From Hexactinellida sp. DTS-2022 (lineage: Eukaryota > Porifera > Hexactinellida): DNA of 64,000 nt. The stretch lies in assembly GCA_028753945.1 (NCBI GenBank), contig JAPNXP010000017.1, positions 1,240,001-1,304,000 of the forward strand, in the 5' to 3' direction. Both the position numbers and the translations under genes were made by a program. The notes below the pieces were generated by a model, which saw nothing but the letters and a program-made list of their open reading frames with translations, was not told the DNA's origin and made no database searches. The first letter of the stretch is position 1. The number at the start of each line of letters is the position of its first letter. Below are positions 11,971-56,575 of the stretch, in pieces.

Positions 11971-11972
11971 AT

Positions 11973-15706: not shown

Positions 15707-15750
15707 CTCGGGGACGAGCTATTAGAGGAATGGAGATATATAATAAAGTA

Positions 15751-24369: not shown

Positions 24370-25045
24370 ATTCTATAGTATAGAGGCCCAGTAATGAAAT
24401 GACTGCCTTGGTATATTATTATTACTGTGCCGACTATACTACTATCGTAAAGTGGCCCAGTTCTAATCTTATTGCATTGGTTACCGATTATTATTAAATA
24501 ATACTGTGCCGACTATACTATCGTTTAGTGGCCCAGTTCTAATCTTACTGGTTTGGTTACCGATTATTAATATTATTAGTCCGTATCCTCTACAGAACAG
24601 AGTTTTATTAACCAGGAGCTCAAATTTTGAGGGCAGGTGTCTCATGGGCTACAGATGTGCACCTGGGGTCAATATTATCTCTTAGTTGCCAATTGAAAGT
24701 GAAAGTGAATGTAAAATTTAATTTAATTTCAAAATGAAAGTGAAAGTGGGGTTTTTCTATTTATACCTTGGACCCCAGGGCATCCATGTCATATGATATG
24801 GTATGATATTATTATGTATGATATATATGATATATATGATATTATATAAGTTATATAAGTTATGATAAATTATTAATTAATTAATAGGAAGCCAGTATAA
24901 ATGTAATAAAAATCCAAAATTGCAGCTGTGCCGACGCATTTCCCTTTGGTGGCACTAGCTTTTGGTGGCTACTGGTTGGGTAATTGATAGTGCCTCTAAA
25001 TGGAAATGCGTCGGCACAGGCTGCAATTTGGGATTTTATTATATT
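24370..25045. repeat. copy A remnant of the intron-1 repeat (homologous to 34.03-34.4 kb)
   Basis: Contains two or more units of the GTGCCGACTATACTA...TAGTGGCCCAGTTCTAATCTTA minisatellite (24425-24550), the block GAACAGAGTTTTATTAACCA...GTGCACCTGGGGT and a small MITE (24898-25040), in the same order as in copy B. Confidence 0.65.
24898..25040. mobile_element. ~130 bp palindromic MITE (AATCCAAAATTGCAG family)
   Basis: Inverted ends AATCCAAAATTGCAGC and GCTGCAATTTTGGATT enclose GTGCCGACGCAT and GGCACTA motifs. At least seven clear relatives lie at 35165-35292, 36026-36158, 37726-37845, 38562-38690, 39805-39930, 40665-40790 and 48268-48400, plus diverged ones at 27360-27450 and 47790-47912. Confidence 0.75.
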
Positions 25046-25201
25046 GATTTGTATCCTCTCCAACAAATTTCTGCTCTCTAGGTAGTATGGTCATTTTAAT
25101 CAATTACGGACAAACATACAAACAAATAACAATTGTGTTTTTAATATGTAGATATTTATAGTTTATTGGTAGTATGAAGGGTGGTTACTGGTTAGTAGCA
25201 T

Positions 25202-25345
25202 CAGGGGCGTAGCTAGGGGGGGGGGGCGGGGGGGGGGCGGACCGCCCCGGGCGGCATAAATTAAGGGGCGGCAATATTAAGGGGCGGCATAAAGCGGCAT
25301 TAAATGTATCCGCCCCGGGAGGCATAGGTGCAAGCTACGCCTCTG
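25202..25345. mobile_element. 144 bp hAT MITE, target duplication AGTAGCAT
   Basis: CAGGGGCGTAGCT ... AGCTACGCCTCTG ends; AGTAGCAT at 25194-25201 and 25346-25353. The empty site is present in duplicate copy B at 44021-44035 (GTTAGTAGCATAATTATT). The body is G-rich with repeated GGGGCGGCA. Confidence 0.92.
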
Positions 25346-26235
25346 AGTAGCATAATTATTTAATATTAAAGAAAAATTATATGAATTATGAGAAGTGTTA
25401 AATTTATTATTAGGTGTAGAAACCAAGTGTAATTTTTGTACTTATTTACAAGTATATAAATATACTAGTATACGATTAAAATATAAGCAACAATATAATT
25501 TTTGAACAATGGATATGAGTTGATCAATTGTGTACCTAAAGTGAGAAGCAATCAATACTATGATGGAAATTCTAGTATATTAGATGTTTGGCAATTGATT
25601 AACAATATAGTTTCCAATGTTGAGATTCAATTGCAAACTATGCACAGTACAGTAGTTGATCAATTGTAAACGTTGATTGATTAAAAGTAGTTGATCAACA
25701 ACAAATCCTAGAAATTTGATCAATCACAATCACTAGACTCAGTATTTGATCAATTTCAACTCCTTGATTCAGCATTATGTATCATGACAGAGTTCATAAA
25801 TATTAATCTATTAAATTTAAGTAGTAGGGAACCCACAACCACAATACCTCACAATTTTTATTTCAGTCAATGGGAAGCAGTGCAGTGCACAGAATGTTTG
25901 CTATTTACTATAGAGCATATAGAGGTACACAGTTTACAAAACGGATTGTGGTTTTACCAACTTCAGAATGTGTCCCGACTCCCGACAAATTGGATTTTAG
26001 ATTTTCAAAAATTACAGAATTTTAAATGATGACCAATATTTAAAAATGTGAAAATTCAAAATTCTATACAAAACAAATAATACATGAATAATATTGCATG
26101 CAAGGATGAATATCATGTGGCCCTCGACAGTTGAATGATCTATTACGAAAGTAAGGAAAAATAATGACTCGTATGATACATAGGAGACATAATAATACAA
26201 TATACTGTCAATTAAATTGGATCTACTGTTTGTAG

Positions 26236-26616
26236 CTCCCTCAAGCGGTTGCGATGCAATTACAGATAAAGGGAGATGTTACAACTATTTCACTAGTTCT
26301 GCTATTGACTGGCATGATGCTAGAGAAATGTGTCTAGCGTGGGGAGGAGACCTAGCTACTGTGACATCTCTCGAAGAGAATACAATGATGTTCAACAGCA
26401 AACCAGGAGTCTCTAATTGTTGGATAGGACTCAATGACATAGATGTAGAGAATACTTTTGTTTGGGCAGATGGTAGCGAAAACACATATAGAAACTGGGA
26501 TTCTAATGAACCTAATAATCAAAATGGTGAAGATTGTGCAGTGATAAGGTCATATCAAAAGTGGAATGATAGAGTTTGTGAACATACACTGGGTTGCTAT
26601 TTCTGTAGCACAACAG
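26236..26616 (+). CDS. receptor copy A, exon: C-type lectin domain
   Basis: Exon between an acceptor (TGTTTGTAG) and a donor (G|GTCAGT), phase 1 at both sides. It encodes a complete C-type lectin domain of about 127 residues: CYNYFTSSAIDWHDAREMC, WGGDLATVTSLEEN, SNCWIGLNDI, and the Ca2+/sugar site EPN (SNEPNNQNGEDC) with WND (KWNDRVC). EPN is the mannose-type motif in vertebrate lectins, so mannose/GlcNAc-type sugar binding is inferred. The domain would be extracellular, N-terminal to two Ig-like domains and FN3. Copy B (46170-46556) is nearly identical. No signal-peptide exon for copy A was found; the Tigger element lies where it would be expected. The domain assignment is firm, gene function inferred. 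Confidence 0.88.
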
Positions 26617-27034
26617 GTCAGTCAGCCCTTCGAATAATAAATATATACATAGATATATTGTATGTATTAAGATTACTGGAAAATGTATTTAGGAGCAAAT
26701 ATATACTCTCCATTAATATAGGAGCACAAAAATAGTTTACCAGCTTCGAACTAGTAAATAGAAAATTATTGTGCATTTGTTTGTAATCAATATTTAAACA
26801 TTTGGTATAAAAACATTTGATACTCATGATGATAAGCTTCAAAATCAAATATAAAGCAATACTATTTTCTAAGGTGATATAAGTGATGTGATGCTGAGGT
26901 GATGCCTATTGCTAAGGTATAAATAACAGTATATTTATTATCCTGAAAACTCCATGAGTTTAACTAAATTATTACAATTTAATTAAATAAAAAGAGTTTA
27001 GAGAATAAGAGTATTTGAGCTTATTTATTGTTAG

Positions 27035-27337
27035 TGAGTCCATTCGGAGAACAGATCAGTCCAGACACATACATGCCATTAAAAGACAACACATTTCTGT
27101 TCAGAAACACTACTCTTTACTGTATAACAGAAACTAAAATCACACCACAAGTAACATGGAGCTTTACATATTTTAATGGACTCAGTACTAATCTCTCTGC
27201 TACAACTAATGCAACAACAGGAGTCAGCACTCTCTATGCAACTAATGACAAGACAGGATACTACAGCTGTGTAGTTAGTCAGTGAGGAGGAGGGGAAACT
27301 AGAACATATACTACTGTGATGCTGGATTTCATTATAG
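27035..27337 (+). pseudogene. receptor copy A, exon: first Ig-like domain, with in-frame TGA
   Basis: Acceptor TTATTGTTAG and donor G|GTATTT, phase 1-1, joining the lectin exon in frame. It encodes an Ig-like fold: TTLYCITE (first Cys), VTWSF (core Trp), and NDKTGYYSCVV (D-x-G-x-Y-x-C with second Cys). At 27283-27285 copy A has TGA where copy B has AGA, followed by one extra GGA codon, so translation would stop just after the Ig domain. The product would be a secreted lectin-Ig fragment without membrane anchor unless the codon is polymorphic. Otherwise nearly identical to 47465-47764. Confidence 0.85.
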
Positions 27338-27557
27338 GTATTTGCAGTTTATGGTTATAAAAATCTAAAATACAACTGTCTCGAGAGCATTTTCTTTGGT
27401 GATAGTAAATTTGGGGAAGTGTGATCGTGCCTCCAAAGGAAAATGCTGTATAAAAAACTAACCAATTTCAAACTGGGCCACTATACCACTAAAGTATAGT
27501 CGGTACAAATATTTTTTAAATATTACACTAGATTGTAAATCAACTATTGTTTATTAG

Positions 27558-27833
27558 GTACACCAGTCTTAACATTGGATTATGGTTGTGGCAATACATT
27601 CTCTCTCCTCCCTCCTGCTGTCAACAAAGCTGATATTCCTGCACTGACACAGAATGTGCTGCTGAGTGTTAATCTAGTTGGAAGATGGCAGACACCAGAT
27701 GGTAGTTATGTCAACAGTGATTCCATCACAATCCGAACAATCTATGTGTCTAATGCTGGACTGTACAAGTTCTATGTCACTAACTGGGATGGAGTCTGGA
27801 CACTGGCTATTCAGATAGACATATCACCTGTTG
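27558..27833 (+). CDS. receptor copy A, exon: second Ig-like domain
   Basis: Acceptor TTTATTAG, donor G|GTAAGT, phase 1-1. It encodes about 92 residues beginning GTPVLTLDYGCGNTFSLLPP, with GRWQTPDG and SNAGLYKFYVTN, the beta-sandwich pattern of an Ig-like domain in which the second core Cys is replaced by Phe. Copy B has the same exon at 52871-53146. The preceding intron is only about 220 bp here but 5.1 kb in copy B. Confidence 0.8.
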
Positions 27834-27913
27834 GTAAGTTTGCTATCGCATCATTAACTCAGTATTTTGCCATATTGGTCATACTCAACATCAATATTTA
27901 CTTCTTTTTATAG

Positions 27914-28611
27914 AAACTTACTCACAGACAACCATGTTTCTGACTACAGAAACCACAAGCCAAACTTCAATGCTAGTTAACTGGAGTCTGTCAGAAATGA
28001 ACCAATACAATTCAGAAGGGACATTTTCCGTATATTTTGAGTTTGGAAATTTTGAAATTTTTGCTGGTACAACAAAAAATTTCTCACTTGAGATAACAGG
28101 ATTAGTCCCAAACGTTAACTACACTGTGCGAGTCGAGCTCCAATATCCTTATTCTGCGTATGTCATTTCCGCCACTACTCACCATCTTCTAGCTCTGAGT
28201 GGAGACACCAACACAGGCACCTCTACCAATCCAGTTACTACAACTGATTTTCTTACAAACACTGAACAGAGTATATCCTATACAATGTACACAATCATAG
28301 CTGTGCTTGTCATATTCGTAGCTGTGCTTGTCACTAGCCTCATACTCGTTCTACTAATATGTGTCTTCTTTGTGTGTGCTATGAAGAAAAGTAGTAGGAG
28401 CAAAGTGAACGTGAACTCGCGTAATAATCAAATGCAATTGCCCCAGATACACGGTAATGAGATATACCAGCAAATTGATACCACCCATCCCATGGCACAT
28501 GAGAATAAGTCGTTTTTGTACTCAGAGAGTGTAAGCGTTTCTGAGGAAAAAGAAATAAAATTGGATCTGAAAGTACCTGTCTCTGATAACTGCTATGGTA
28601 ATATTAATTAG
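27914..28611 (+). CDS. receptor copy A, last exon: FN3, transmembrane helix, Tyr-containing tail
   Basis: Acceptor TTTTTATAG; terminates with TAG at 28609-28611. It encodes an FN3 domain (SMLVNWSLSE..., GLVPNVNYTVRVEL), a Thr/Ser-rich stalk, one membrane helix of about 30 hydrophobic residues (starting YTIIAVLVIFVAVLV), a basic stop-transfer (MKKSSRSK) and a cytoplasmic tail of about 75 residues with EIYQQI, FLYSES and NCYGNI. YQQI and YGNI are YxxI motifs, and YGN is a potential Grb2-type SH2 site, so tyrosine-based signalling is plausible but unproven. The frame is intact here, unlike copy B. Confidence 0.87.
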
Positions 28612-29239
28612 AATAAGTGTGTTTCTAAGTGTCTCTTCTAAAAACTCTGATTAGATTCATTTTGTGTTCCCTATTATATCGGCTAATACTATACATGATA
28701 TAATTGGTGTAAAAGTTTGTATTAATTAGATTTGTAGATTGTGTGAGATTTGTATATTAAACTTTGTATAATCTGCTACTTTTAATACAGACAGTCTACT
28801 TCCGTTATTTGTACTACAGGGCTTCTTGGCTGAGTATTAACCAAAGATGAAGCATTTTAAAATTTACCTGTCATGGAAGTGAAACCTGCAGACAATACCT
28901 GGGGTATTGAATGGGAACTTCCTAGAGAATCGAGAACAAGCGACCAACGGAACAAAAGTACATGGATTGCTGTAAACCGTTCCTCTACAACTGAAAGTTT
29001 GAAACATAAATAAGTTGCTCTCCGTTTGAAATATATTACGTTCAACATGTAATTAGTACAAATTAATAGTAAAACCCCCTCACAGGTGGGATGGGACTCA
29101 TGGGAGTGTGCTTCTTCTGGTGCACAGGAAGCACCCAACGTTTGATTAATGTTAAATAATCATAGCAGGAATTTAGTTCCATATTCAAATTTTTTACTGT
29201 AACTTGGAAAGTATATGAGCTAGAGAGTAAACTCTTATC
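28612..29239. other. 3' flank of receptor copy A
   Basis: Non-coding, nearly identical to 53900-54540 apart from small indels. It probably includes the 3' untranslated region; no further exon was recognised. Confidence 0.5.
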
Positions 29240-30010
29240 TTGGTAAAAAGATAGTTACCAAGATAAGAGAGGAGGCGGTAGAAGTTACGTCAAGACAGTC
29301 GAGCGAGGCGCACTGGAAGACGAGAAGCCTGCATCTATCTCAGTTAAGATTCAAGTACGGGAAACGCCGCCCTTGTTAGATACAAGGGCCAAGGTCAATG
29401 TGGTTGACAAGCAAACATTGAACGAGCTAGGGCTCAGTCGGTACGTCAAACCCGAGACCAGCCATGTTTATGGAGTTTGCGGAACACCAGTCGCAGTGGT
29501 GGAGCATCGAAATCCACATTGAAGTAAATGATACTGTAACTCAGTGGACTCACGTGACGTGTTGGATGGGAATTTACAGACATTGTTACTAGGGCGACAG
29601 TTCCTCAGACATTTCGGACGAGTAATATTTGATTGGGAGGACGGAACCATAAAGCTAGGCAAGGCGAGAACGGAAATATAAGATACAGCAGTAGGTGGGA
29701 ACCCAATTTCAAGGGCACAGTCAGTGAAGGTAGTTTCTTCCGGTGAAAAGCCCCACAACAAAGAATGCAAGCTTGACTACAATTAAATAGTCCGAGTTGT
29801 CTGAGTTGTTAGAGGAGTTAGGAGCGCTGTTTAGTGACAAGCCAGGTAGAGCTCCAGGGTGCGAACATGCAATAAACAAGGGGAGTACAGTCCCCGCCAG
29901 GTCCAGGCCTAACCGCATACCTCCGAAATGGGAAGACGAAATAAACACACAAATAGACGAAATGCTCGGAAAAAGTTGTGTAGGCCGTCCATCACTCACT
30001 GTGGGCTAGT
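29240..30010 (+). pseudogene. decayed Ty3/gypsy pol fragment, copy A
   Basis: Broken frames encode a retroelement protease region near 29377 (with DTR instead of DTG/DSG at the active site) and the start of reverse transcriptase near 29797-29975 (LFSDKPGRAPGCEH, RPNRIPPKWEDEINTQ). It stops there. The same RT segment and flanks occur in copy B (54540-55010), so this remnant predates the segmental duplication. It is unrelated in sequence to the element at 10849-15899. Confidence 0.75.
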
Positions 30011-31216: not shown

Positions 31217-31227
31217 GAATTTATGTA

Positions 31228-33756: not shown

Positions 33757-33829
33757 ATGAAACATATATTCAATTTCAACGTGTTGATCCCGATATTTCT
33801 TCAGTTGCGTTCACTAGTCTACTGTCAAG
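33757..33829 (+). CDS. signal-peptide exon, probable exon 1 of receptor copy B
   Basis: ATG at 33757 opens 24 codons: MKHIFNFNVLIPIFLQLRSL, then VYCQ, and a phase-1 donor G|GTAAGT at 33830. A Lys/His start, hydrophobic core of about 12 residues and small/polar end form a typical secretory signal peptide. The phase (1) is exactly that needed to join the lectin exon at 46170, giving a split Ala codon. In between lies only mobile DNA. The Tigger-ended element 33837-40874 begins seven bases into the intron, so the donor core GTAAG remains. Assignment to the receptor is inferred from phase, order and the lack of any other candidate. Confidence 0.65.
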
Positions 33830-34034
33830 GTAAGTACAGTACACCCTCGCTAATCCGAACAGAGGTGTTCCGATTCAAAAATATTCTGTTCCGATTAGTG
33901 AATTCGTTAGGATTAGTGAAGTAATGCATTTTCTAAGGGCATCTATAAATGAGAATCTCGATAATCAGAAAAAAACTTGTACAAACCTTGTTAATCCGCA
34001 CTAAACATCTAGTGTACTCCTTAAAATACTTGCC

Positions 34035-34275
34035 GGAGACTTATTACTGTGCCGACTATACTAGTATAGTATAGTGGCCCAGTATTGTATCACTGCCTTT
34101 ATTACAGTGCCGACTATACTAGTATAGTGGCCCAGTTCTAATCTTACTGCCTTGGTTATTACTGTGCCGACTATACTATAGTATAGTGGCCCAATTCTAA
34201 TCTCAGTGCTTATGTTACTGTGCCGACTATAGCATAGTATAGTGGCCCAGTTCTAATCTTACTGCCTTGGTTAGT
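34035..34275. repeat. minisatellite GTGCCGACTATACTA / TAGTGGCCCAGTTCTAATC
   Basis: Four to five units of 45-75 bp, each with an imperfect palindrome (CTATACTA-TAGTATAG). Related units are at 24425-24550, and single reversed copies at 27470-27510 and 52790-52820. Confidence 0.7.
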
Positions 34276-36507
34276 ATTAGTCCGTAGATCGTCTACAGAA
34301 CAGAGTTTTATTAACTAAGAACTGAAATTTTCAGGACAGGTGTCTCATGGGTCACAGATGTGCACCTGGGGTAACGATTTTTGATTACATTTTTTTTGAC
34401 ACATGTTAGAAAAGGAACAATAAATGGTGCCCGAATATTTAATTTATTTGCATTCGATAGAGAATTAAATTCTACACCTTTGGGCTTCGTTTGTGACAAA
34501 ATTGAGTTGCATATTTCCTTTGTTTACTAACACTTCAGTTCAATTGAAAGTGTTATATCTAATTATATTGTTTCGACTAGTGATTATTAGATCGAGTAGG
34601 CTTCTATTTTCTAATTGACAATTAAGATTTTACATTCCATAAGAACGACAGATTATGTGAGTATATTTCCTTCTGCAAGAATACTCTTGCACTGTTAATA
34701 TACTGACGTAATTATTAAATAATCACATAAACTGTCGTTGTTATGAAATGTAAATCTTAGTTTTCAATTGGAAATAGAAGCCTAACAGATCTCACAAGTG
34801 GAATCAATATAATAATCACAAGTTGAAACAATAGAACGAGATTTAACACTTTCAATTAAACTGAAGTGTTAGTAAACAAAGGAAATTTGCACAACTCTAT
34901 TGTGGCACAAACGAAACACAATTTAAAAGTTCGTGTACTGTGAAAAGGTGTAGAATTTAATTCTCTATCGAATGCATATAAATTTAAATTACGGGCACCA
35001 TTTATTTTTCCTTTCCAAACATTAAACAGGTGTAAAAATGTGTCCAAACAAATGTAATAAAAAATCGTGACCCCAGGTGCACATCTGTAACCCATGAGAC
35101 ACATATCCTGAAAATTTGGGCTATTAATTAATAAAACTCTGTTATATGGAGTGGCTATGGAAGAATAATAAAAAATCCAAAATTGCAGCTGTGCCGACAC
35201 ATGCTCCTTTGGTGGCACTATATTTTGGTGGTGGTTTATTGATAGTGCCTCCAAAGGAACATGCTGTCACCACAGGCTGCAATTTTGGATTTTTTTTCGC
35301 CAAGTCATCAACGCCTCAAGGCGTCAAGAACCATTTGTTAATTGGGTAGAGTCACAAGGAACGGTAGATAAATTTGAAGTTTGTTTCTATCATAAACCAT
35401 CTTGAGTTTAATGCCATTCATTCATTATGTATTGATAATAAATTATATTATTAGTTATTTATTTTAGCAATGTTATCCACGGTGAGTGAGTTAAGTCAAC
35501 AAATTCCTTATATTATATATTATTTTATTTAATCCATTGTATAGTAGTATACTACAATTAAATAGAATCCAGCTGGAATTTATAAGTTAAATCAATATAA
35601 TTATCGCGAGTTGAATCAATAGAGTAAAATTTAACAAGTTAAATCAATAGAATTATTACAAGTTGAAACAATAGAATTAGATTTAACACTTTTACTGAAA
35701 CTGAAGTGTGAGTAAATAAAGAAATTTCAACCTTCATTTATGGCAGAAATTTAACCCATTATTAAAAATTTTCTTCTCCCAACAGACGCAGAATTTTATC
35801 GTGAATCCATTGGTGAAATAAAAATTGGGGTTTAGTAAAACATTTTTTGAGTTATGGACCAGACAAAATTTTGAAAGGTGTTAAAATGTGTCCAAAACGT
35901 GTAATTAAAAATCGTAACCCAAGGTGAAAATTAGACAGTCACTTCGCACCTACATGCCAGGTTGCAGTCCATCAACTATAAAGCTCTGACCAGGGCACCT
36001 GCTACGGAGAAAACAAAAATATTAATAATAAAATCCAAAATTGCAGCCTGTGCCGACGCATGTTCCTTTGGTGGCACTATATTTTGTTGGTGGTTTATTG
36101 ATAGTGCCTCCAAAGGAACATGCTGTCGGCACAGCTGCAATTTTGGATTTTTTATTATTCTTCCGTAGCCACTCCATATAACAGAGTTTTATTAATTAAG
36201 AGCCCAAATTTTCAGGATATGTGTCTCATGGGTTACAGATGTGCACCTGGGATCACGATTTTTTATTACATTTGTTTGACACATTTTTACACCTGTTTAA
36301 TGTTGGAAAAAGAACAATAAATGGTGTCCGAATATTCAATTTATATGCATTCGATGGATAATTTAATTCTACACCTTGTCACAGTGCACGAATTTTCAAA
36401 TTGGGTTTCGTTTGTGCCACAATTGAGTTGCAAATTCCCTTTGTTTACTAACACTTCAGTTCAATTAAAAGTGTTAAATCTAATTCTATTGTTTCAACTT
36501 GTGATTA

Positions 36508-44043: not shown

Positions 44044-45326
44044 CGAGCCCTTCGGTCTCGGTCGCTTTGCGACAGATCGTTTCTATGCACCTCATGTTAA
44101 CGGCCGCTACGCGGCCTTACTCCTCACAAACAAATGATTACATAGTTCGTAAATATTTGTCATAGTTATATACTTATAATACCCGTTGAAAGCTAACTTC
44201 TAGGTTGATTTTGAATTTCAATAATTCGTTTACCTATTTTGTGTCAACAACAACAACAAATATTCATATTATAAATTTATAAATGCGAAATTCGAAATCA
44301 GCATACTTGTTTACCTATATACCCGTTGAAAGCTAACTTCTAGGTTGATTTTGAATTTTCATTACATGTAATTTGTTTACCTATTTTGTGTAAACAACAA
44401 CAACAACAAATATTCATATTATAAATTTATAAATGCGAAATTCGAAATCAGCATACTTGCTTACCTATAATACCCGTTGAAAGCTAACTTCTAGGTTGAT
44501 TTTGAATTTCATTAATTCGTTTACCTATTTTGTGTAAACAACAACAACAAATATTCATATTATAAATTTATAAATGCGAAATTCGAAATCAGCATACTTG
44601 TTTACCTATATACCCGTTGAAAGCTAACTTCTAGGTTGATTTTGAATTTTCATTACATGTAATTTGTTTACCTATTTTGTGTAAACAACAACAACAAATA
44701 TTCATATTATAAATTTATAAATGCGAAATTCGAAATCAGCATACTTGCTTACCTATAATACCCGTTGAAAGCTAACTTCTAGGTTGATTTTGAATTTCAT
44801 TAATTTGTTTACCTATTTTGTGTAAACAACAACAACAAATATTCATATTATATATTTATAAATGCGAAATTCGAAATCAGCATACTTGTTTACCTAAAAT
44901 ACCCGTTGAAATCTAACTTCTAGGTTGATTTTGAATTTCATTAATTTGTTTACCTATTTTGTGTCAACAACAACAACAAAAATTCATATTATAAATTTTT
45001 AAACGCGAAATTCGTGTTCGGCATACTTGTTTACCTATTATAACATTTGAAAGTTAGTTTATATCCCATATTAATTGCGGTTTCTATTCCCCCATCACTT
45101 TAATATAATCCAGACAAACACACACACACACACAAACACACACACACGCAGGTAAATGTCCTCATATCCGGTTTTTGTCCTCATATCCAAATTTTTGTCC
45201 TCATATCCAAGTTTTTGTCCTCACATCTATAGATACGAGGACAAGTTTTTGCGATATGAGGACATCCTCCTGCACACACACAAACACACAAACACACAAA
45301 CAACAATCGAGATTTAATAATATAGA
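44044..45326 (-). mobile_element. complete Helitron-like element (CTCG end) carrying a satellite array
   Basis: Reverse orientation: 3' end CGAGCCCTTCGGTCTCGG at 44044, 5' end TCTATATTATTAAATCTCG reading down from 45326. Duplicate copy A has the empty site: AATTATTTAATA|TTAAAG at 25365/25366, corresponding to A|T insertion. Internal satellite 44180-45060, CA repeats 45113-45143 and a short TTTTTGTCCTCATATCCAA repeat near 45160-45260. Confidence 0.9.
44180..45060. repeat. ~140 bp satellite, six units plus a worn one, inside a Helitron
   Basis: Each unit holds ACCCGTTGAAAGCTAACTTC, TTTGTTTACCTATTTTGTG, a variable (CAA)n tract, ATTCATATTATAAATTTAT and GCGAAATTCGAAATCAGCA. Units start near 44182, 44320, 44466, 44608, 44760 and 44901. 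Longer (with ACATGTAATTTG) and shorter units alternate, so the higher-order unit may be a dimer. Single units occur at 33270, 49090 and 63900. Confidence 0.85.
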
Positions 45327-46169
45327 TTATAGAAAATATATATGAATTATGAGAAGTGGTAAATTTATTATTAGGTGTAGATACCAAGTGTAATTTTTAA
45401 ACTTTTTTTTAATTTACAAGTATAAATATACTTACGATTAAAATACAGTATAAGCAACAAATATAATTTTTTGAACAATGGATATATGAGTTGATCAATT
45501 GTGAACCTAAATGAGAAGCAATCAATATTATAATGGAAATTCGAGTATATTAGAGGTTGGCAATTGATTAACAATAATTTCCATCGTTGATCAATTGCAA
45601 ACTATGCACAGTAGTTGATCAATTGTAAACGTTGATTGAATAAAAGTAGTTGATCAACAGCAAATCCTCGAAATTTGACCAATCACTAGACTCAGTTTTT
45701 ATCACAATTTCAACTCCTCGATTCAGCATTATGCATCCTGACAGAGTTCATAAATTTTAATCTACTAAATTTAAGTAGTAGGGGACCCATAAGAACTCAC
45801 AATTTTAATAGTCAATGGGAAGGAGTGCACATAATGTTTGTTATTTGCTATAGAGGTACACAGTTTAAAAGACGGATTGTGGTTTTACAAACTTCAGAAT
45901 GTGTCCCGAGTCCCGACGACAAATTGAATTTAGATTTTAGATTTCCAAAATACAGAATTTTAAATGATGATCAATATTTTAAAATGTGAAATTCTATATA
46001 AAACAAATAATGCAGGAATAATATTGCATGCATGCATGCATGGATTAATATCAATTGGCCGCTCGGTAGTTGAATGATCAATTACGAAACTAAGGAAAAA
46101 TAATGACTCGTATGATACATAAGAGACATAATAATATACTGTCAATTAAATTGGATCTACTGTTTGTAG

Positions 46170-46556
46170 CTCCTTCTAGCGGTTGCGATGCAATTTCAGA
46201 TAAAGGGAGATGTTACAACTATTTCACTAGCTCTGCTATTGACTGGCATGATGCTAGAGAAATGTGTCTAGCGTGGGGAGGAGACCTAGCTACTGTGACA
46301 TCTCTCGAAGAGAATACAGTGATGTTCAACAGCAAACCAGGAGTCTCTAATTGTTGGATAGGACTCATTAACATACATGCAGTAGAGAATACTTTTGTCT
46401 GGGCAGATGGTAGCGAAAACACATATAGAAACTGGGATCTTAATGAACCTAATAATAATGGAGAAAAAGAAGATTGTGGAATGATATGGTCAAACCAAAA
46501 GTGGAATGATAGACATTGTGAAGCTACACTAGGTTGCTATTTCTGTAGCACAACAG
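46170..46556 (+). CDS. receptor copy B, exon: C-type lectin domain
   Basis: Acceptor TGTTTGTAG, donor G|GTCAGT, phase 1-1. The lectin domain is nearly the same as in copy A, with all four core cysteines, EPN (LNEPNNNGEKEDC) and WND (KWNDRHC) preserved. Differences concentrate around the sugar site: a two-residue length change before the conserved Cys and replacements such as INIHAVENTF for NDIDVENTF and GMIWSNQKW for AVIRSYQKW. Such changes next to EPN/WND could alter ligand choice. The frame is intact and joins the signal exon (33757) and Ig exon (47465) in phase. Confidence 0.88.
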
Positions 46557-46827
46557 GTCAGTCAACCCTTCGAATAAAAAATATATAACATAGATATATT
46601 GTATGTACTAAGATTACTGGAATATATATTAGGAGAAAATAAATACTCTCCATTATAGGAGCACAAAAACAGTTCACCAGCTTCGAACTAGTAAATAGAA
46701 AATTATTGTTCATTTGTTTGTAATCAATATTTAAACATTTTGGTATAAAAAACATATGCTAACCATGATGATATTTAAAGCTTCAAAATCAAATATAAAG
46801 CAATACTATTTGCTAAGGTGATATAAG

Positions 46828-47127
46828 CAGGGTTGCCGTGGGTATGGGAATTGCCATGGGGATCCCCATACCCATGGGAATGGGAATGGGAATCAGATTT
46901 TCCCCTGTGGGGATCCCCATGGGATATTCGCATATGGTTTCATTAGGTCATCCTTAATTAATATAAGCTTTACTATTGATACGAATCTGCTGTAATTAAA
47001 TACGTTTTTATGTATATATTATACTCCCCAATGGATTCCTATGAGGATTTCCATGGGGATTCCCACAGGATTCATATGGGAATGGGATGGGAATGGGAAC
47101 GGAAATTCCATTCCCACGGCAACCGTG
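46828..47127. mobile_element. 300 bp hAT MITE, target duplication GATATAAG
   Basis: Ends CAGGGTTGCCGTGGG and CCCACGGCAACCGTG, with many GGGAATGGGAAT / CCCCATGGGGAT motifs within. GATATAAG is at 46820-46827 and 47128-47135. Copy A has the empty site (GGTGATATAAGTG near 26873). A partial relative is at 48412-48515. Confidence 0.93.
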
Positions 47128-47266
47128 GATATAAGATGAAGTGATGCTAAGGTGATGCCTATTTGCTAATGTCTAAATAACAGTATATTTATTATCCTGA
47201 AACTCCAGGAGTTTAATAAAATCATTACAATTTAATTAAATAAAAAGGATTTAGAGAATAAGAATA

Positions 47267-47441
47267 CAGTAGAACCTCGTTAGTGCGAACACGGTTAATA
47301 CGAATCCCCAGATAAAACGAACAAACAGTTCCACAAATCAAGTCCCTATAATGACTATTCATACTCAGATTAATACGAACTCCGGATAAAGAGAACATAT
47401 TTTTACTTACCGTTGGCGTTCGTATTAACGAGGTTCTACTG
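47267..47441. mobile_element. Tigger-type MITE, TA target, in copy B only
   Basis: CAGTAGAACCTCGTTAGTGC ... AACGAGGTTCTACTG flanked by TA on both sides (47265-47266 and 47442-47443). The empty site in copy A is AAGAGTATTTGAGC near 27008. The left half of a relative may lie at 47990-48062. Confidence 0.92.
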
Positions 47442-47464
47442 TATTTGAGCTTATTTATTGTTAG

Positions 47465-47764
47465 TTAGCCCATTCGGAGAACAGATCAGTCCAGACACAT
47501 ACATGCCATTAAAAGACAACACATTTCTGTACAGAAACACTACTCTTTACTGTATAACAGAGACTAAAAACACACCACAAGTAATATGGAGTTTTACAGA
47601 TTTTAATGGAGTCAGTACTAATCTCTCTGCTACAACTAATGCAACAACAGGAGTCAGCACTCTCTATGCAACTAATGACAAGACAGGATACTACAGCTGT
47701 GTAGTCAGTCAGAGAGGAGGGGAAACTAGAATATATACTATTGTGATGCTGGATTTCATTATAG
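47465..47764 (+). CDS. receptor copy B, exon: first Ig-like domain (intact)
   Basis: Acceptor TTATTGTTAG, donor G|GTATCT, phase 1-1. The frame is open throughout: TTLYCITE, VIWSF and NDKTGYYSCVV mark the Ig fold, followed by QRGGETRIYTIVML, the G-strand. At the codon that is TGA in copy A this copy has AGA (Arg). The insertion of the Tigger MITE 23 bp upstream of the exon leaves the acceptor untouched. Confidence 0.87.
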
Positions 47765-48948
47765 GTATCTGCAGTTTATGGTATATAAAAATCTAAAATA
47801 CAACTGTCCCGAGAGCATTTTCTTTGGTGACACTATATTTTGGGGAAGCGTGATAGTACCTTCAAATGAAAATGCTGTTTTTCAGCACAGATATAATTTT
47901 AGATTCTGTTATCCCTTGAGCGAAATGTAATTCAACCTACAATATATTGTTTTGTATGTAGTTGATTGCAAATTTGCAATTGATGTCGTTAAAATGAACT
48001 CCAGATAATACGAGCAAATTCCGATGATCCCCTGGTGTTCATATTAACGAGAGTCTTCTGTATAGAGTATTTGATAGAGCTATGCTCATTCACGATCATG
48101 CATATACTGAAGAGTGAAGACTTTGTCAACTCGAAATTGATTAATAATATATAATACAGATGTTTTAGCGAACATATCTAAATGCGTAGCGGCTAAGTGA
48201 TCCATCGCGAAGCTGACGAGAACAAAGGAGCTGTTGCATTTATATTATTTCCATCCTATTGGAGAAAAAAATTATAATTACAGCTCTGCAGACAGCATAT
48301 TCTGGTGGAGGCAATATTAGTCATTAAACCACCAAATATAGTGCCTCCAAATAATATGCAGTTGGCACAGCTGTACTTTTAGATTTTTTAATTATAATTA
48401 GAAGTCTAGTCCTCTGGAAAATCTGCATCTGGTATCCCCATGGGGATCCATCTGGGGATCTATATGCGAATCCCCACAAGGGAAAATCTGATTCCCATAC
48501 CCACGGCAACCCTGTATCTGTAACCCATGAGTCACTATCCTGAAATTTGACAACTTGATTAATCTTCACCTGAATTAATTCCACATACTTTGATTAATCC
48601 AGTCTGGCTTCCATCAGTTTACTCTATTCGTGATGTATCATTAACTTAACATTTTAAATATGTATAATACGAATGTAATAGTTTGCGTCTAGTTTTTTCA
48701 TCTCACGATAACCGAACTAAAATATTATCAGAGGGGGCCAATAGCGTAGCCAATGGGGGAGCAGGGAGCGCCATCGCTTCCCCTGACAGTGTTGTTTCCA
48801 GGGAATGAAATGTTCACGAACGAACTTATTGAACTTTAACTGAACAAACAGAACGTAAGACTATTTAAGGGACGAGCTGAACGAACGACGATCGACCTGT
48901 CTCCCCTTGAACGTGTACGGAACGAACGGAACGAATTTAATAATGATA

Positions 48949-49384
48949 TCTATATTATTAAATCTCGATTGTTGTTTGTGTGTGTTTGTGTGTTTGTGTG
49001 GTGTTTGTCCGGATTGTATTAAAGTGATGGGGGATAGAAACTGCATGTATATATGAGATATGAGATATAAACTAACTTTCAAATGTTATAATTGGTAAAC
49101 AAATGTTATAAGGGGTAAACAAGTATGCTGATTTCGAATTTCGCATTTACAAATTTATAATATGAATATTTGTTGTTGTTGTTGACACAAATAAGTAAAC
49201 AAATTAATGAAAATTCAATATCAATCCAGAAGTTAGCTTTTAACGGGTATTATAAGTATACAACTATGACAAATATTACTAACAAGTAATCAATTGTTTA
49301 GTGAGGAGTAAGGCCGCGTAGCGGCCGTTAACTTGAGATGCGTAGCACCGATCTGTCGCAAAGCGACCGAGACCGAAGGGCTCG
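48949..49384 (+). mobile_element. short Helitron-like element, CTCG-end family
   Basis: TCTATATTATTAAATCTCG start after A, one satellite unit in reverse (about 49090-49250), then GCGGCCGTTAACTTGAGATG, hairpin GTCGCAAAGCGAC and GAAGGGCTCG before T. It is the single-monomer relative of 44044-45326. Confidence 0.8.
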
Positions 49385-50204
49385 TTATAAATATTGAAGC
49401 ATAAAATATGAATCACTTAAAAGTGCGAATTCCGGACATTCCTCGTGTCATGTCTGTTTGTCGTACTTGTCAACGACCAGCGAACTCAACGAACGAACGC
49501 TGGTGGAGTTGAACGTGATCGATTTTACATTTTAGACTCTTATTTTGTCCATATACTACTAAATGTCTGCACAATGACCCTTTAGCAAGCTTTGCTCCCC
49601 TTAAAATCCTGGCTCCCCCACTAGAGGGGGCCCGCACCCAAAATTATGACCCGGGGCCCGCTCGCGCTCTCGACTGCCCTGCCCATCAGAACGATTTTAG
49701 TACTGTGCATCTTATAGTATAAAATTATAATATGACCCTACTATAACGTATTTTTACTAGAAGAAGCACACTAAAAATCGGAACAAAGGTTGGAGTGATA
49801 GGACACATGCATTCTATGTAGTATCCCAAAAGGTCAGGAATTCGGAAAAGGTTCAAAAAAAGGAATTTCCTTTATAATAACTAGCTAAATAAATATCAAA
49901 CAATTGTTCGTAGTGAACCAATTTGGTCTAAATGTTTTAGAATCCGAAAGTTACAGAGGGCTACGTGAGGGAATACTTTGTGAAAATAAATATTTTGTGT
50001 AAAAAATCAGGGCTAAAATGAATATACCGAATATTCGTTGAAATGATTGAACGAATATTCGTTTGGACGAATATCAGATTGAAACGGATATTCGTTGACT
50101 ACTTTTGGGCAACAACATGACTTTTGTTTAGCTTGGAGAGATCGTAAATATAAATTCCTACTTAAACTAGCTGAATAATACACTTGCAACTATCTATCTA
50201 TCTA

Positions 50205-51120
50205 TCTGTATATTAAAAGAGGAATTGTTGTGTGTTTGTTTGTGTGTGTGTTTGTCCAGAATTAATAGGAAAGACTACGAGTCCTAGAAAGCTTAAAATT
50301 GGCATACATGGGTTATTTTTACTGCGACAACGATCTATTGGTTTTCTAAGCGAAATAACGGGATTATGACGTCATAAAGGCACATATTTGGGAATAACTC
50401 TTTCAGTTTTTATTCGATTCGCCCACAATTTTAGATGATAACACAACATACAATGAGACACACGTATACCGATTTATGGGAGTGTGACGTCACGTAGGAA
50501 CTAATTTGGATTCAGCTCTTACACTTTTGGTTCAATCGACAAATAATTTTGTCACATTATAAAACAGAATGTATTGCATGTCTCTAGAATTTTTTATAAT
50601 TTTCGCATTTAATCTGAGCCAGGCTATAACAAAAATGTAACCTCCAGTTGCTGCGTCATTGCGCATATTGAGGTTTGACGATTTAATCTTCACCTACATT
50701 ATTTCCGAAATTGCATACTTGATTAATCCAGTTTGGCTTCCATCAGTTTATTTCTATTCGTGATGTATTTAGCCTACGTCAATCACAAGCATACATAATA
50801 TTACTATCAAAGTAATTCAACTATTTACAAACAATTTTCCTATGTAAATCCTGGGTTAGTAAATAACATGAATTAATTAATTAATTCATTCATTAGTTGA
50901 CATACTTGGGTCCCAAATAGCAGCATAGAGTACGTGTAATTTACAAGTCACAGGTTTAACCTATTTAATATGAGTGATAATTGAGGAGTGTAAGGCCGCA
51001 AATCGGCCGTTAATTAATTGTGTTGCGGTGTACACGTGTGTAACACGAATGAACAAAAGTCGCGAAGCGACTTTTGTGAGAGAGTGATCCGTCGCGAAAC
51101 GACCGAGACCGAAGGGCTCG
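50205..51120 (+). mobile_element. Helitron-like element, CTCG-end family, first of a tandem pair
   Basis: Starts TCTGTATATTAAAAGAGG after A and closely matches 2965-3865 along its whole length; ends GTCGCGAAACGACC then GAAGGGCTCG. Confidence 0.75.
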
Positions 51121-52390
51121 TATATTAAAAGAGGAATTGTTGTATGTGTGTTTGTGTTTGTTTGGATGTTTGTCCGTAATTAATTGGAAAGACTACGAGT
51201 CCCAAAAAGCTGAAAATTTGCATACAGGGGTAATTTTGTACTGCGACAACGATCTATTGGTTTTTGAAACAAAATAACGGGATTATTACGTCACAGTTGC
51301 GAAAAACAGATATTTTGTACTAGCTTCCCAATTTTGCTCCGATCTGTAGAAAATTCAAATCATTAGACGTACACTAAATTTCTACACCTGATAGCAGTTC
51401 ACGAATTCCCATTTTACTTCTGACTGTGACACAGTTAATTAATTAGTCCCTGCACTAATCAACCATAAATAGTGTATCGTACCAACACAGGTATAGCAAA
51501 GTGCAAAATCGATTTTCGATTGTGTTCTATTGCAAACAATTCAAGTAAGAGTGATTAACGAAAGTTATTAGTTCAATGTAGCATATTATTCTTAGCACTA
51601 TGTGGGTGATCTGATTTGTTTGGTTAGCAAGAATGCACTCGACTACTTAACTTCTCTGATGCATTGTTTATTTATTACACCTATATTGGCTTCCTATTAA
51701 TAAGACAATTAATGGGATTACGTAATTTCTAACCTATACTGAAATTACTGAAATTAATTAAGTTAAGTAGTTGATTCATCAAGGATTTAGGATCTGTCTA
51801 ATTATGAGATTGATATGTTTATTATTACTATCAATTAAATCAACTATTTTACAACTCTGGATTTAACCTCTGCATAATAATGGTTTAATGGTGAGAATAA
51901 GACCGCGAAGCGGTCTTATTCTCATCTTTAAACCATTATTATGCAGAGATTACTTTGCAATACAATATACTGAAATAAATAATTGGGTATAATTTATCAG
52001 ACACGGGTTTCAATTTATTTGAGCTAACAAGCTAACCTTTTAATGGAGCTGAAATGTGCTACCTTAATTAAGAATTATTGAGCCAATATCATATAATATT
52101 AATAACTAATAAGTAATGAGAATAACATACATAACACATCATTTCCCAAACAGATTACATTAACGAATCACAACCCAGAATGAATTTAAGCGCGCGTTAA
52201 GTAGTGTGTGAAATTTACTAGCCACAGGTTAACTTATTTATTATTAATATTACTGTCTTTTAGAGGAGGGAAAGGCCGCGAAGCGGCCGTTAATTGCATT
52301 GCGTAGTGCCTAACACGAACGAACAAAGGTCGCGAAGCGACCTTTGTGAGAGAGTGATCCGTCGCGAAGCGACCGAGACCGAAGGGCTCG
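51121..52390 (+). mobile_element. second Helitron-like element, joined head-to-tail to the first
   Basis: It begins TATATTAAAAGAGGAATTG directly after the CTCG of the preceding unit and ends in the same hairpins and GAAGGGCTCG at 52390. The middle differs from the first unit and includes a perfect hairpin GAGAATAAGACCGC-GAA-GCGGTCTTATTCTC at about 51893-51925. Confidence 0.7.
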
Positions 52391-52629
52391 TATTATTAAA
52401 CCATTGTGACAATAACAATAACCTATTTCTCCAATTTATTTTGTATCTTGAATTGTATTAAAGAAGTGATATATTCAAAGATGGAACTTAAGTACTTAAT
52501 TAATTTCCATGGAAACTGCTACCATATTTTAGGAGTCCACTTTCTTTTGGGACATCAATTTGGGGTAATATCTAACAGATAGAGTTGATTTGTCATTGTT
52601 TCAATGAATATATGTGCCCAGGGCTGGTT

Positions 52630-52706
52630 ATAGTCAGTTTTATTGTTTGCATAGTGTCTAACACGAACAAACAAATGTTGCGAAGCAACCCATACCGAAG
52701 GGCTCG
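52630..52706 (+). mobile_element. 3' end fragment of a CTCG-family element
   Basis: CATAGTGTCTAACACGAACA, GTTGCGAAGCAAC and GAAGGGCTCG in the family order; the 5' part is missing. Confidence 0.6.
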
Positions 52707-52870
52707 TTATAATAATAATTATCCAAGGCAGAGATTTAAGAACGGCCTGATACATAGTAGTCGGAACAGCATAAAAACTAACCAATTTCAATCTGGACCA
52801 CTATACTAAAGTATAGACGGCACAAAAAAAAATATCTATTAGGTACACCAGTCTTAACATTGTCTATTAG

Positions 52871-53146
52871 GTACACCAGTCATAACATTGAATTATGGAT
52901 GTGGCAATACATTCTCTCTCCTCCCTCCTGCTGTCAACAAAGCTGATATTCCTGCACTGACACATAATGTGCTGCTGAGAGTTAATCTAGTTGGAAGATG
53001 GCAGACACCAGATGGCAGTTATGTCAACAGTGATTCCATCACAATCCGAACAATCTATGTGTCTAATGCTGGACTGTACAAGTTCTATGTCACTAACTGG
53101 GATGGAGTCTGGACACTGGCTATTCAGATAGACATATCAACTGTTG
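52871..53146 (+). CDS. receptor copy B, exon: second Ig-like domain
   Basis: Starts after the second of two duplicated TCTATTAG acceptors; donor G|GTAAGT; phase 1-1. About 92 residues: NYGCGNTFSLLPP, VNLVGRWQTPDG, SNAGLYKFYVTN. Differs from copy A at only a few positions (for example TPVITLNYGC for TPVLTLDYGC, and Thr for Pro in the last codons). The frame is intact. Confidence 0.8.
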
Positions 53147-53228
53147 GTAAGTTTGCTTTCGCATCATTAACTCTCAGTATTTTGCCATATTGGTCATACT
53201 CAACATCAATATTTACTTCTTTTTATAG

Positions 53229-53719
53229 AAACTTACTCACAGACAACCATGTTTCTGACTACAGAAACCACAAGCCAAACTTCAATGCTAGTTAACTGGA
53301 GTCTGTCAGAAATGAACCAATACAATTCAGAAGGGACATTTTCCGTATATTTTGAGTTTGGAAATTTTGAAATTTTTGCTGGTACAACAAAAAATTTCTC
53401 ACTTGAGATAACAGGATTAGTCCCAAACGTTAACTACACTGTGCGAGTCGAGCTCCAATATCCTTATTCTGCGTATGTCATTTCCGCCACTACTCACCAT
53501 CTTCTAGCTCTGAGTGGAGACACCAACACAGGCACCTCTACCAATCCAGTTACTACAACTGATTTTCTTACAAACACTGAACAGAGTATATCCTATACAA
53601 TGTACACAATCATAGCTGTGCTTGTCATATTCGTAGCTGTGCTTGTCACTAGCCTCATACTCGTTCTACTAATATGTGTCTTCTTTGTGTGTGCTATGAA
53701 GAAAAGTAAACTCGCGTGA
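53229..53719 (+). pseudogene. receptor copy B, last exon: FN3 and membrane helix, tail lost by 20 bp deletion
   Basis: Identical or nearly so to copy A through the FN3 domain, stalk and membrane helix. After KKS, 20 bp present in copy A (encoding Ser-Arg-Ser-Lys and following residues) are missing, so the frame changes and stops at TGA 53717-53719. The protein would end KKSKLA, with no Tyr-containing tail. The former tail is still readable out of frame to about 53905 and has one further change near 53846. The product would be a membrane-anchored, signalling-dead or decoy form if expressed. Confidence 0.87.
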
Positions 53720-54539
53720 TATTCAAATGCAATTGCCCCAGATACACGGTAATGAGATATACCAGCAAATTGATACCACCCATCCCATGGCACATGAGAA
53801 TAAGTCGTTTTTGTACTCAGAGAGTGTAAGCGTTTCTGAGGAAAAATAAAATAAATTGGATCTGAAAGTTCCAGTCTCTGATAACTGCTATGGCAACATT
53901 AATTAGAATAAGTGTGTTTCTAAGTGTCTCTTCTAAAAACTCTGATTAGATTCATTTTGTGTTCCCTATTATATCGGCTAATACTATACTATAGTATACA
54001 TGATATAATTGGTGTAAAAGTTTGTATTAATTAGATTTGTAGATTGTGTGAGATTTGTATATTAAACTTTGTATAATCTGCTACTTTTAATACAGACAGT
54101 CTACTTCCGTTATTTGTACTACAGGGCTTCTTGGATGAGCATTAACCAAAGATGAGCATTTTAAAATTTACCTGTCATGGAAGTGAAACCTGCAGACAAT
54201 ACCTGGGGTATTGAATGGGAACTTCCTAGAGAATCGAGAACAAGCGACCAACGGAACAAAAGTACATGGATTGCTGTAAACCGTTCCTCTACAACTGAAA
54301 GTTTGAAACAGAAATAAGTTGCTCTCCATTTGAAATAAATACGTTCAACATGTAATTAGTACAAATTAATAGTAAACTCCTCACATTTGGGATGGGAGTG
54401 TGCTTTTTCTGGTGCACAGGCCGCACCCAATGTTTGATTAATGTTAAATAATCATAGCAGGAATTTAGTTGCATATTCAAATTTTTGACTGTAACTTGGA
54501 ATGATATGAGCTAGAGAGTAAACTCTTATCTTGGTAAAA
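53720..54539. other. former tail and 3' flank of receptor copy B
   Basis: Matches 28430-29240 of copy A. It has a small extra stretch (ACTATAGTATACATGAT) near 53985. No separate gene seen. Confidence 0.6.
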
Positions 54540-56575
54540 GATAGTTACCAAGATAAGAGAGAAGCGGTAGAGGTTACCTCGAGACAGTCGAGCGAGGCGC
54601 ACTGGAAGATGAGAAGCCTGAATATTTGATTGGGAGGACGAAACCATAAAGCTAGGCAAGGCGAGAACGGAAATACAAGATACAGCAGTAGGTGGGAACC
54701 CAATTTCAAGGGCACAGTCAGTGAAGGTAGTTTCTTCCGGTGAAAAGCCCCACAACAAAGAATGCAAGCTTGACTACAATTAAATAGTCCGAGTTGTTTG
54801 AGTTGTTAGAGGAGTTAGGAGCGCTGTTTAGTGACAAGCCAGGTAGAGCTCCAGGGTGCGAACATGCAATAAACAAGGGGAGTACAGTCCCCGCCAGGTC
54901 CAGGCCTACCCGCATACCTCAGAAATGGGAAGATGAAATAAACACTCAACTCGACGAAGTGCTCGGACAAATCTCTCACCGTGGGCTAGTAACGTGTCCT
55001 GGTGACTAAGAGAGACGGTCGCCAACGCAATAGTATAACCAAAAAGGACGCATATGGAAATTTGGAATCCCCCAGGTGCAAACTATGCTGGATAACTACA
55101 TGGCTACCAGTATTTCACAGTGATTGACATCAAAGCCGCGTTCTGGTGTGTGCCAGTCACGGTGGAAGATGTGGATAAAGCAGCATTCAACACACCCAGG
55201 GGGTTGTTTGAAATGACTGTCATGCCTTTCGGCCGAATGTCTACATTTCGGTCCGAAATGTCCACCCAGGTAAAACATTTTTCCGATTTTTCGGACAAAA
55301 ACGGACACTCCCAAGTTCTTAGAAAAAGCTATTTTTGGTTGGGTATGGCACAAGATGCACGCATATTTTGCCAGAATTGCCTAGTATGCCAACATGCCAA
55401 TTTCTCAACCAAGGGAAGGTTCCCTTGCAATAATTCAAGTTGGGCCCTGTGATTTAGTGGCGATGGACATCGCCACGCTACCTTGGTCAGACGACAAGTT
55501 CCGGTACTTTATGTGCATTGTCGACGCCTTCACGCGATACATAGAGCTAATCCCACCGAAGGACCAGTCTTCCGCCTCAATAGTGAGAGAGTTTCAACGC
55601 GGATGGATTATCCGGGAGCATGGTGTACCCAAAGGTCATTTAACGGATCAAGCCCACAATGTCGACGGGACAGCGATCAGAGCTTTATGTGAGGAGTTAG
55701 GGATCGAGAAGCGTCACTCATCTCCCTACCATCCCCAAGGGGAATGGCCTGGTAGAAAGAGCCATCGGACAAGCAAAACAAGTAGTCAGGTGTTTAACCA
55801 TCGAACGCAGCCTACGAAAAGTATCTTGGCCAGAGGTCTTAATACCAGTGGTTGCATTCTATTTTAATAACGCGGTAAACTCTTATACCTCAGCTGCTGA
55901 TGTTTGGTAGGCAACCCGTATCCCCTATAGACGCGGTTATGACGAAACTCAATGGAACAAGACAGCGAATTACCCCGAACACATGATAAGAGCGGAGAAG
56001 GTCTCGGCGGAGCTGAAAGCCTTAGCTGGAGAGAACGACCGCATCGCCAAGCAAGTGAGAATCAGGTATCACAACACAGGAACTGTGGCTCCACAGTTCA
56101 AAAAGGGAGACTTAGTGCTAGAGAAGAATGAGACGATGAAGGATTCGCTGGATCGAAAATTTAACGGCCCTTATAAGGTGATTGACGGTAGGGACACTGG
56201 CGTAAAGATCCAAAAAGGTAGAAAACGCAAGTGGATACACGCAAGCCCCTGCAAACGGTTCCCGGAAAGTAGCACCATTGACACTTCCGAATAGAAGCCA
56301 GACCTGCCAGCAACGGATAAGCCTCGCCAGTGGGAGAGCTGGTAGTTGTTCCAGTCACGACATAACCCAGGAAGAAGAGCGAAGCTAACGTGGTGCTCGA
56401 AGAGTTGGAGGAAGGGTCAAGCCCGCCAAGGAACCAAAGCACAAAAGACCCAGTAGAAGGAGAAGACCTGATTAGAAGATATCCCCTACGCATGCGTAAG
56501 CAGAAAGATTATCAGGACTACATAAGTACAGGGATTATTTTATGCTACGATGATCGGAGAAATGTGAAGTTATAA
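54540..56575 (+). pseudogene. decayed Ty3/gypsy pol with internal deletion, copy B
   Basis: The RT start (54794-54975: LFSDKPGRAPGCEH, PQKWEDEINTQL) is shared with copy A. Then come an RT palm fragment (55120-55240), an abrupt join to the integrase zinc finger (FCQNCLVCQ near 55380), a frameshift, the integrase core (55440-55790; AMDIATLPW, HLTDQAHNVDG, YHPQGEW, with the catalytic Glu region damaged) and the integrase C-terminal domain (55983-56294; FKKGDLVLEKN, FNGPYKVID). RNase H and the RT active site are deleted. It is inactive, and longer than the copy A remnant. Confidence 0.8.

Follow-up and report, generated by a model that had tools for sequence, protein, structure and literature searches.

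Two damaged copies of a C-type lectin-Ig-FN3 receptor gene in a hexactinellid sponge and the receptor family around them

To examine a pair of related genes in Hexactinellida sp. DTS-2022, a stretch of 64,000 nucleotides (the window, C9:1240001-1304000 within a 112.4-Mb assembly of 18 contigs) was analyzed. It contains two copies of a gene for a predicted receptor with C-type lectin, immunoglobulin (Ig), fibronectin type III (FN3)-like and membrane-helix segments, which lie at 26236-28611 (copy A) and 33757-53719 (copy B), as a sequence-only reading of this DNA had stated. The copies are 20 kb apart on one contig; in 3994 aligned columns their difference is 4.6%. In the exon models of both, AG and GT flank every intron border and all borders are of phase 1 (Table 1). 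Each copy carries a lesion in its coding sequence, and both belong to a larger family of receptor genes.

Spliced copy B encodes a signal peptide, a C-type lectin, an Ig, an Ig-like and an FN3-like domain and a membrane helix, followed by KKSKLA and a stop. A signal exon of copy A was not found by a local tblastn search with three signal peptides against the window and the family loci, in which on C9 only the exon of copy B scored below E 1. When one signal peptide was searched against the whole genome, 12 places were found, on C9 only that of copy B and none for copy A; this search recovered signal exons for only 10 of the 22 lectin exons (heads) of the family. Since its signal exon was not found, a soluble form of copy A is unlikely, and the lectin-Ig fragment that had been proposed for it is not supported. 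The 12.3-kb intron 1 of copy B holds a nest of inverted and direct repeats (window 34787-40797) that are up to 99% alike.

Table 1. Features of copies A and B; positions are those of the window.
Feature	Position	Strand	Remark
Copy A block homologous to copy B, starting inside intron 1	25365..29974	+	self-BLAST of the window; gapped
Copy B block homologous to copy A	45326..54971	+	self-BLAST of the window; gapped
Copy A C-type lectin exon, EPN...WND	26236..26616	+	Lectin_C match over cut-off
Copy A first Ig exon (Ig1), TGA at 27283-27285	27035..27337	+	splice model
Copy A second Ig-like exon (Ig2), open	27558..27833	+	without Pfam support
Copy A last exon: FN3-like domain, membrane helix, tail (EIYQQI), open	27914..28611	+	
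Copy B signal-peptide exon, 12.3 kb 5' of its lectin exon	33757..33829	+	
Copy B C-type lectin exon, EPN...WND; GLND motif gone, one residue gained there	46170..46556	+	
Copy B Ig1, open	47465..47764	+	
Copy B Ig2-like exon, open	52871..53146	+	
Copy B last exon: FN3-like domain, membrane helix, KKSKLA-stop after 20-bp loss	53229..53719	+	
28-bp tandem duplication in copy B repeating the Ig2 splice acceptor	52835..52890	+	acceptor sequence at 52835 and 52863
A/B tract without substitution, 557 aligned columns, ending 9 columns past the 20-bp gap of B	27846..28422 (A numbering)	+	

The lesions are read directly from the assembly. Copy A has an in-frame TGA inside Ig1, next to a GGA-rich stretch; a stop with two exons behind it, as here, would normally make the RNA a target of nonsense-mediated decay. 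The last exon of copy A is open, and both the stop and the intact helix and tyrosine-containing tail had been described correctly. In copy B, 20 bp corresponding to positions 28394-28413 of copy A are gone between 53708 and 53709, and the frameshift replaces the tail, in agreement with the deletion that had been noted. Since most of the 20-bp stretch is present in the five other family tails aligned, the tail of copy B represents the derived state. Its former tail frame shows further changes, one of them a stop. The Ig exons of copy B are open, as had been claimed, but its Ig2 acceptor is duplicated, and the upstream one, if used, would shift the frame. Of the 22 lectin domains in the family, all but that of copy B retain the motif GL[N/H]D; in an alignment with a rat mannose-binding protein domain, the change falls at an acidic residue that is a ligand of the auxiliary calcium. 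Despite this loss, the lectin exon of copy B retains EPN, EDC and WND.

Substitutions between A and B were counted along the alignment. They amount to 8.6% in the aligned part of intron 1, 7.1% in the lectin exon, 5.8% in intron 2, 4.3% in Ig1, 8.9% in the 5' part of intron 3 and 24% in its poorly aligned 3' part. Ig2 differs by 2.5%, intron 4 at 1 of 80 columns, the FN3-helix part at 0 of 480 and the tail at 9 of 198, while the sequence downstream of the tail shows 4 differences in 417 columns, then 6.9% and 3.1%. The longest run of aligned columns without a substitution is 557, whereas no run longer than 277 arose when the differences were shuffled 10000 times, a test that assumes an even substitution rate. 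This run marks a recent gene conversion, by which A and B exchanged FN3-helix sequence. The converted part is stalk and helix, and the lectin exon lies outside the tract. The run extends past the 20-bp gap of copy B, which had first suggested a deletion younger than the conversion; since just 9 identical columns lie beyond the gap, this order was dropped, and either event may have come first. The tail is more changed than its surroundings (9/198 versus 4/897, P 6e-5), which fits a tract ending there, a patchy tract or relaxed constraint after the deletion.

To describe selection on the two copies, changes in the lectin, Ig1 and Ig2 exons were polarized by the majority of the other members, with one ambiguous change dropped and frame-shifted tail columns ignored. 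The copy A branch carries 15 nonsynonymous changes (the stop included) and 9 synonymous ones, the copy B branch 18 and 5. At a neutral nonsynonymous share of 0.78, the ratio of nonsynonymous to synonymous rates (omega) of copy B is about 1.0 and hence neutral. Neither count shows maintenance of A or B.

The lectin exons of both copies match Lectin_C over its cut-off of 22.6 bits (copy B, 62.4 bits). Seven Ig1-type exons, selected from those of the family, were compared with the profiles ig and Ig_3, and all of them match (best E 8.6e-8), while the Ig1 copy of the window stays below the Pfam cut-offs (22.9 versus 30 and 20.9 versus 21.8); the core Cys, Trp and Tyr-x-Cys residues of Ig1 are invariant, and the best PDB profile match is JAM-A (E 4.5e-5). 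None of the six Ig2 members given matches Pfam; PDB profiles match weakly (best E 0.11, NKG2-D; NCAM Ig 0.3), and AlphaFold models of the A and B versions are mostly beta at a mean predicted local distance difference test (pLDDT) score of 51. The FN3-like domain of the window scores 22.0 bits versus the fn3 cut-off of 25, and four of the five members given match (best E 3.1e-5). The domain set that had been proposed holds for the EPN/WND lectin, the profile-supported Ig1, the helix and the YxxI tail of copy A; it falls short at the signal exon of copy A and at the Pfam support for Ig2 and, in the window copy, for FN3.

A search for paralogues with the same exon phases had been suggested, and it brought up the family. 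The copy B protein gave at least 93 exon matches in its own genome (85 of 204 candidates scored), the exon search covering phase-1 borders. The 22 heads are distributed over contig C1 (17 heads, two of them at 12.42-12.43 Mb and ten at 12.56-12.69 Mb), C2, C5 and C10 (one each) and the locus of A and B on C9. Phase-1 borders are at the expected place in nearly all family exons, the exceptions being the Ig2 acceptor at 12.683 Mb, displaced by 9 nt, and the broken exons at 12.593 Mb. The signal exon and the lectin, Ig, FN3, helix and tail segments are all open in six heads (9.62, 12.566, 12.576, 12.604, 12.672 and 16.026 Mb; at 12.576 and 12.604 Mb the extra Ig1 type is known from a search match only). 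Fully open paralogues thus exist, and the situation of a genome without an intact paralogue, which had been named, together with a lack of transcripts, as fatal to the proposal, does not apply. Other members are broken too, in keeping with the suggestion that the family is decaying: 12.593 Mb (a stop and frame changes), 12.638 Mb (a stop in Ig2), 12.683 Mb (frame lost in the helix) and the C5 member (tail shortened). No 3' end was found in this search for the heads at 11.954 Mb and on C2. Members also vary in FN3, which is absent from the 3' ends at 10.22, 12.642 and 12.655 Mb.

The long family tail is found in 15 of 20 3' ends, 13 of these 15 with YxxPhi. Among the five others, B, C5 and 12.680 Mb have a tail that is shortened or missing, the frame at 12.595 Mb is broken, and the C10 end carries a tail unrelated to that of the family. 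The tail of copy A contains NEIYQQI and FLYSES, which presumably fit neither the inhibitory (ITIM) nor the activating (ITAM) immunoreceptor tyrosine motif consensus. An orphan FN3-helix-tail segment on C13 (429828-430460) is open and starts beside a TTG repeat; its tail is the closest to that of copy A after that of copy B (81%), and no other family exon lies within 1.5 kb either side.

The number of Ig exons per member is either two or four. The four-Ig members have an additional Ig1 type that shares about 50% identity with Ig1 and has matches of 77-100% at seven places. This second Ig1-like exon was not found in the window, where it was sought inside the 5-kb intron of copy B, and the idea of extra Ig exons in this intron was dropped accordingly. 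Ig2 and Ig2' of the same four-Ig gene are 90-98% alike over codons 15-92 and 51-60% over codons 1-15, and this sharp border suggests a putative conversion of the 3' part. This case is weakened by the finding that the Ig2/Ig2' pair of the same gene is the closest pair in only three of seven genes and not in the other four.

Several arrangements elsewhere in the family were also recorded. Two very similar tandem lectin-Ig1-Ig2 cassettes (C1:12422525-12428058) lie 5' of a single Ig1'-Ig2'-FN3-helix end at about 12.411-12.413 Mb; with phase 1 wherever seen, they could be alternative heads or parts of one long protein. The four-Ig members at C1:12574467-12583700 and C1:12600523-12613900, whose near-equal lectin exons have a tree distance of about 0.03, are a recent duplication. 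Signal exons of equal score at C1:16027783-16027848 (-) and 16033873-16033938 (+) are opposed and 6 kb apart, only one of them with a known lectin head. More C-type lectin clusters occur at C15:0.94-1.0, C2:5.98-6.01, C3:0.57-0.59 and C10:1.725-1.738 Mb, with distant Ig1-like exons (31-41%) at those of C10, C15 and C3, which perhaps form a wider lectin-Ig superfamily.

At the sugar site, nine of the 22 heads are of EPN type (one EPT) and 13 of QPD type (one QLD, in the 12.593 Mb pseudogene); WND occurs in all 22 and EDC in 21. Following PMC5379193, EPN is taken here as mannose-type and QPD as galactose-type, although that paper also shows that motif variants can mislead. A single branch of the lectin-exon tree parts EPN from QPD heads with a support of 100/99. 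This distribution is consistent with one switch, which on the tree may have started from EPN, since the divergent EPN head on C10, whose branch is very long, suggests that EPN is the older state. The one-switch case becomes weaker when the motif codons are masked, as the split then has a support of 77/99 and is recovered by 80% of 200 bootstrap trees; the masked tree no longer resolves the early branching of A and B. Nor are A and B shown, or rejected, as sister lectin exons (approximately unbiased test, p-AU 0.37). A link between head type and tail motif (YxxI/L versus YxxM) was dropped after a Fisher test of 12 genes paired by hand, in which genes without a tyrosine or with a lost tail were left out (P 0.55).

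Pooled pairwise dN/dS values for 21 heads, with C10 left out, are 0.73 for the lectin exon, 0.53 for Ig1, 0.47 for Ig2, 0.45 for FN3, 1.25 for the short stalk before the helix, 0.65 for the helix and 0.76 for the tail; as the pairs are non-independent, no test is claimed. In 20-codon windows of the lectin exon, dN/dS stays within 0.29-0.79 as far as column 90; the windows beyond give 1.03 (sugar loop), 0.91, 0.60 and 1.12, and dN itself climbs from 0.09-0.21 to 0.25-0.37.

Taken together, these results point to birth-and-death decay as the probable history of the locus, in which copy A is a pseudogene, while copy B is decaying or, at the most, still gives a receptor without a tail. That the two lesions complement each other is most easily explained by chance in a family of this kind. 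A and B would be members of a type I receptor family (signal, C-type lectin, Ig, Ig-like, FN3, helix, short YxxPhi tail) at an outlying locus with EPN-type, that is mannose-type, heads, and the turnover of the family would involve duplication, gene conversion and loss. The origin of copy A is probably a block beginning in intron 1, duplicated without the first exon; the copies would then have traded parts of the stalk by conversion, and each acquired lesions. Both presumably lack expression. Intact members probably bind glycans via the lectin calcium site, and their tail tyrosine may act in endocytosis or SH2 docking. Several points weigh against decay. The frame of copy B runs uninterrupted from its signal exon to the stop, and its borders are AG/GT. 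The omega of copy A is 0.47 (P 0.06), below neutral, which is unexpected in a gene long dead, although some of the branch may be older than the loss of function. With signal exons recovered for 10 of 22 heads, the negative for copy A is weaker than it appears. Finally, B, C5 and 12.683 Mb all have a signal exon and an ectodomain, and their shared loss of the tail could be a theme rather than decay.

The last point leads to a rather unlikely alternative, in which copy B works as a receptor despite its missing tail; as a decoy or partner it would bind the ligands of tailed members and dampen these members by competing for glycans. Its open frame, signal and helix would allow this, the members on C5 (4.274 Mb) and C1 (12.683 Mb) likewise combine signal and ectodomain exons with loss of the normal tail, and paired receptors elsewhere are homogenized by gene conversion (PMC5701461). 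However, conversion between A and B affected the FN3-helix part and left the lectin exon 7.1% different, the helix of copy B is uncharged, its omega is about 1 and a conserved lectin motif is lost. The tail-less membrane form proposed earlier keeps signal, ectodomain and helix, and given the further damage it would be the best that copy B could yield. Joint diversification of the repertoire, with copy A as a soluble lectin-Ig fragment and copy B as a membrane decoy, is very improbable: the lectin exon of copy A is open with a complete EPN/WND site and its count of changes is below neutral, but its signal exon was found neither upstream in the window nor elsewhere on the contig in an incomplete search, and its stop with two exons after it would normally lead to nonsense-mediated decay. 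The secreted and decoy diversification envisaged in the sequence-only reading is accordingly not shown, given the neutral 18:5 of copy B and a conversion in the stalk and not in the lectin exon. It is likewise improbable that assembly error or unresolved haplotypes produced the lesions; the stop of copy A does stand beside a GGA-rich stretch, but the copies differ by several percent while lying on one contig, and the old tail frame of copy B has further changes. A broader repertoire scenario appears doubtful: after a single EPN-to-QPD change the cluster of QPD heads would have been amplified, the sugar loop would diversify while parts of the stalk are homogenized by conversion, tail-less or soluble competitors would arise repeatedly, and A would serve as a donor pseudogene beside B as a tail-less receptor.

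Other features of the window include a long terminal repeat (LTR)-type retroelement at 10841-15899, with 160-bp ends that are 98% alike and reverse transcriptase and RNase H frames, and a long open frame at 16619-19342 for a hAT-type transposase (DUF4371 and hAT dimerization domain). A basic helix-loop-helix exon lies at 9112-9492 on the minus strand (HLH, E 2.6e-9), and a 795-codon open frame at 58713-61100 represents a ZYG11/ZER1-type leucine-rich repeat gene (ZER1-like domain, E 1e-14).

A and B themselves are minor and illustrate decay and recombination in such families; the family is the more interesting find. If the family reading is true, it offers a countable set of glycan receptors in an early animal lineage, with a predicted sugar preference that switched once (EPN to QPD) and a variable head atop a more uniform stalk. 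One could then test which partners the heads recognize, be they symbionts, pathogens or self, and whether the stalk owes its uniformity to gene conversion.

Lectin-domain repertoires vary among sponges, with 157 C-type lectin-like domain (CTLD) genes reported in the transcriptome of Halichondria panicea (PMC8242945) and 2 for Amphimedon (PMC7308585). The former describes a big lectin-domain repertoire beside an SRCR expansion, as in this genome; its text, as distinct from its figure, mentions no CTLD-Ig-Ig-FN3 order, exon phases or EPN/QPD history. In the portions of open-access text, as distinct from figures, covered by our search (including PMC8242945, PMC6208332, PMC11797021, PMC12723187 and PMC7308585), no description of this domain order as a family was found. 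The present genome has at least 110 domains of the C-type lectin kind, at least 153 SRCR domains and, with split exons missed, at least 16 homeodomain places, a content that suggests a sponge. Silicatein was not among the examined matches (23 matches, three taken up, two of which were read and are ordinary Cys cathepsins).

Among known systems, paired receptors come to mind for two similar copies with different tails, and there the short-tailed partner carries a charged helix residue for an adaptor. The helix of copy B, IIAVLVIFVAVLVTSLILVLLICVFFVC, has no charged residue, and nothing points to opposed signaling. Paired receptors are kept alike by gene conversion, and in Siglec-11/16 the ligand-binding exon is converted, according to PMC5701461. 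The likeness to Siglec-11/Siglec-16 drawn from the same source lies in glycan-type receptors with two similar copies, conversion with a non-functional copy and differing tails, whereas here stalk and helix are converted (the FN3-helix tract) and the ligand-binding lectin exon diverges. With LY75/DEC-205, MRC2 and MRC1 and with MBP/DC-SIGN, the receptors share the lectin fold by sequence and EPN or QPD plus WND as in calcium-dependent sugar binders; the phmmer match to LY75 (E 1.2e-40) is summed over several domains, the best single domain reaching 38 bits. In contrast to the mannose-receptor group, in which repeated lectin domains are combined with ricin-like and FN2 domains, a single head here sits on Ig, Ig-like and FN3 domains, and the family is a transmembrane C-type lectin receptor multigene family with a variant domain order.

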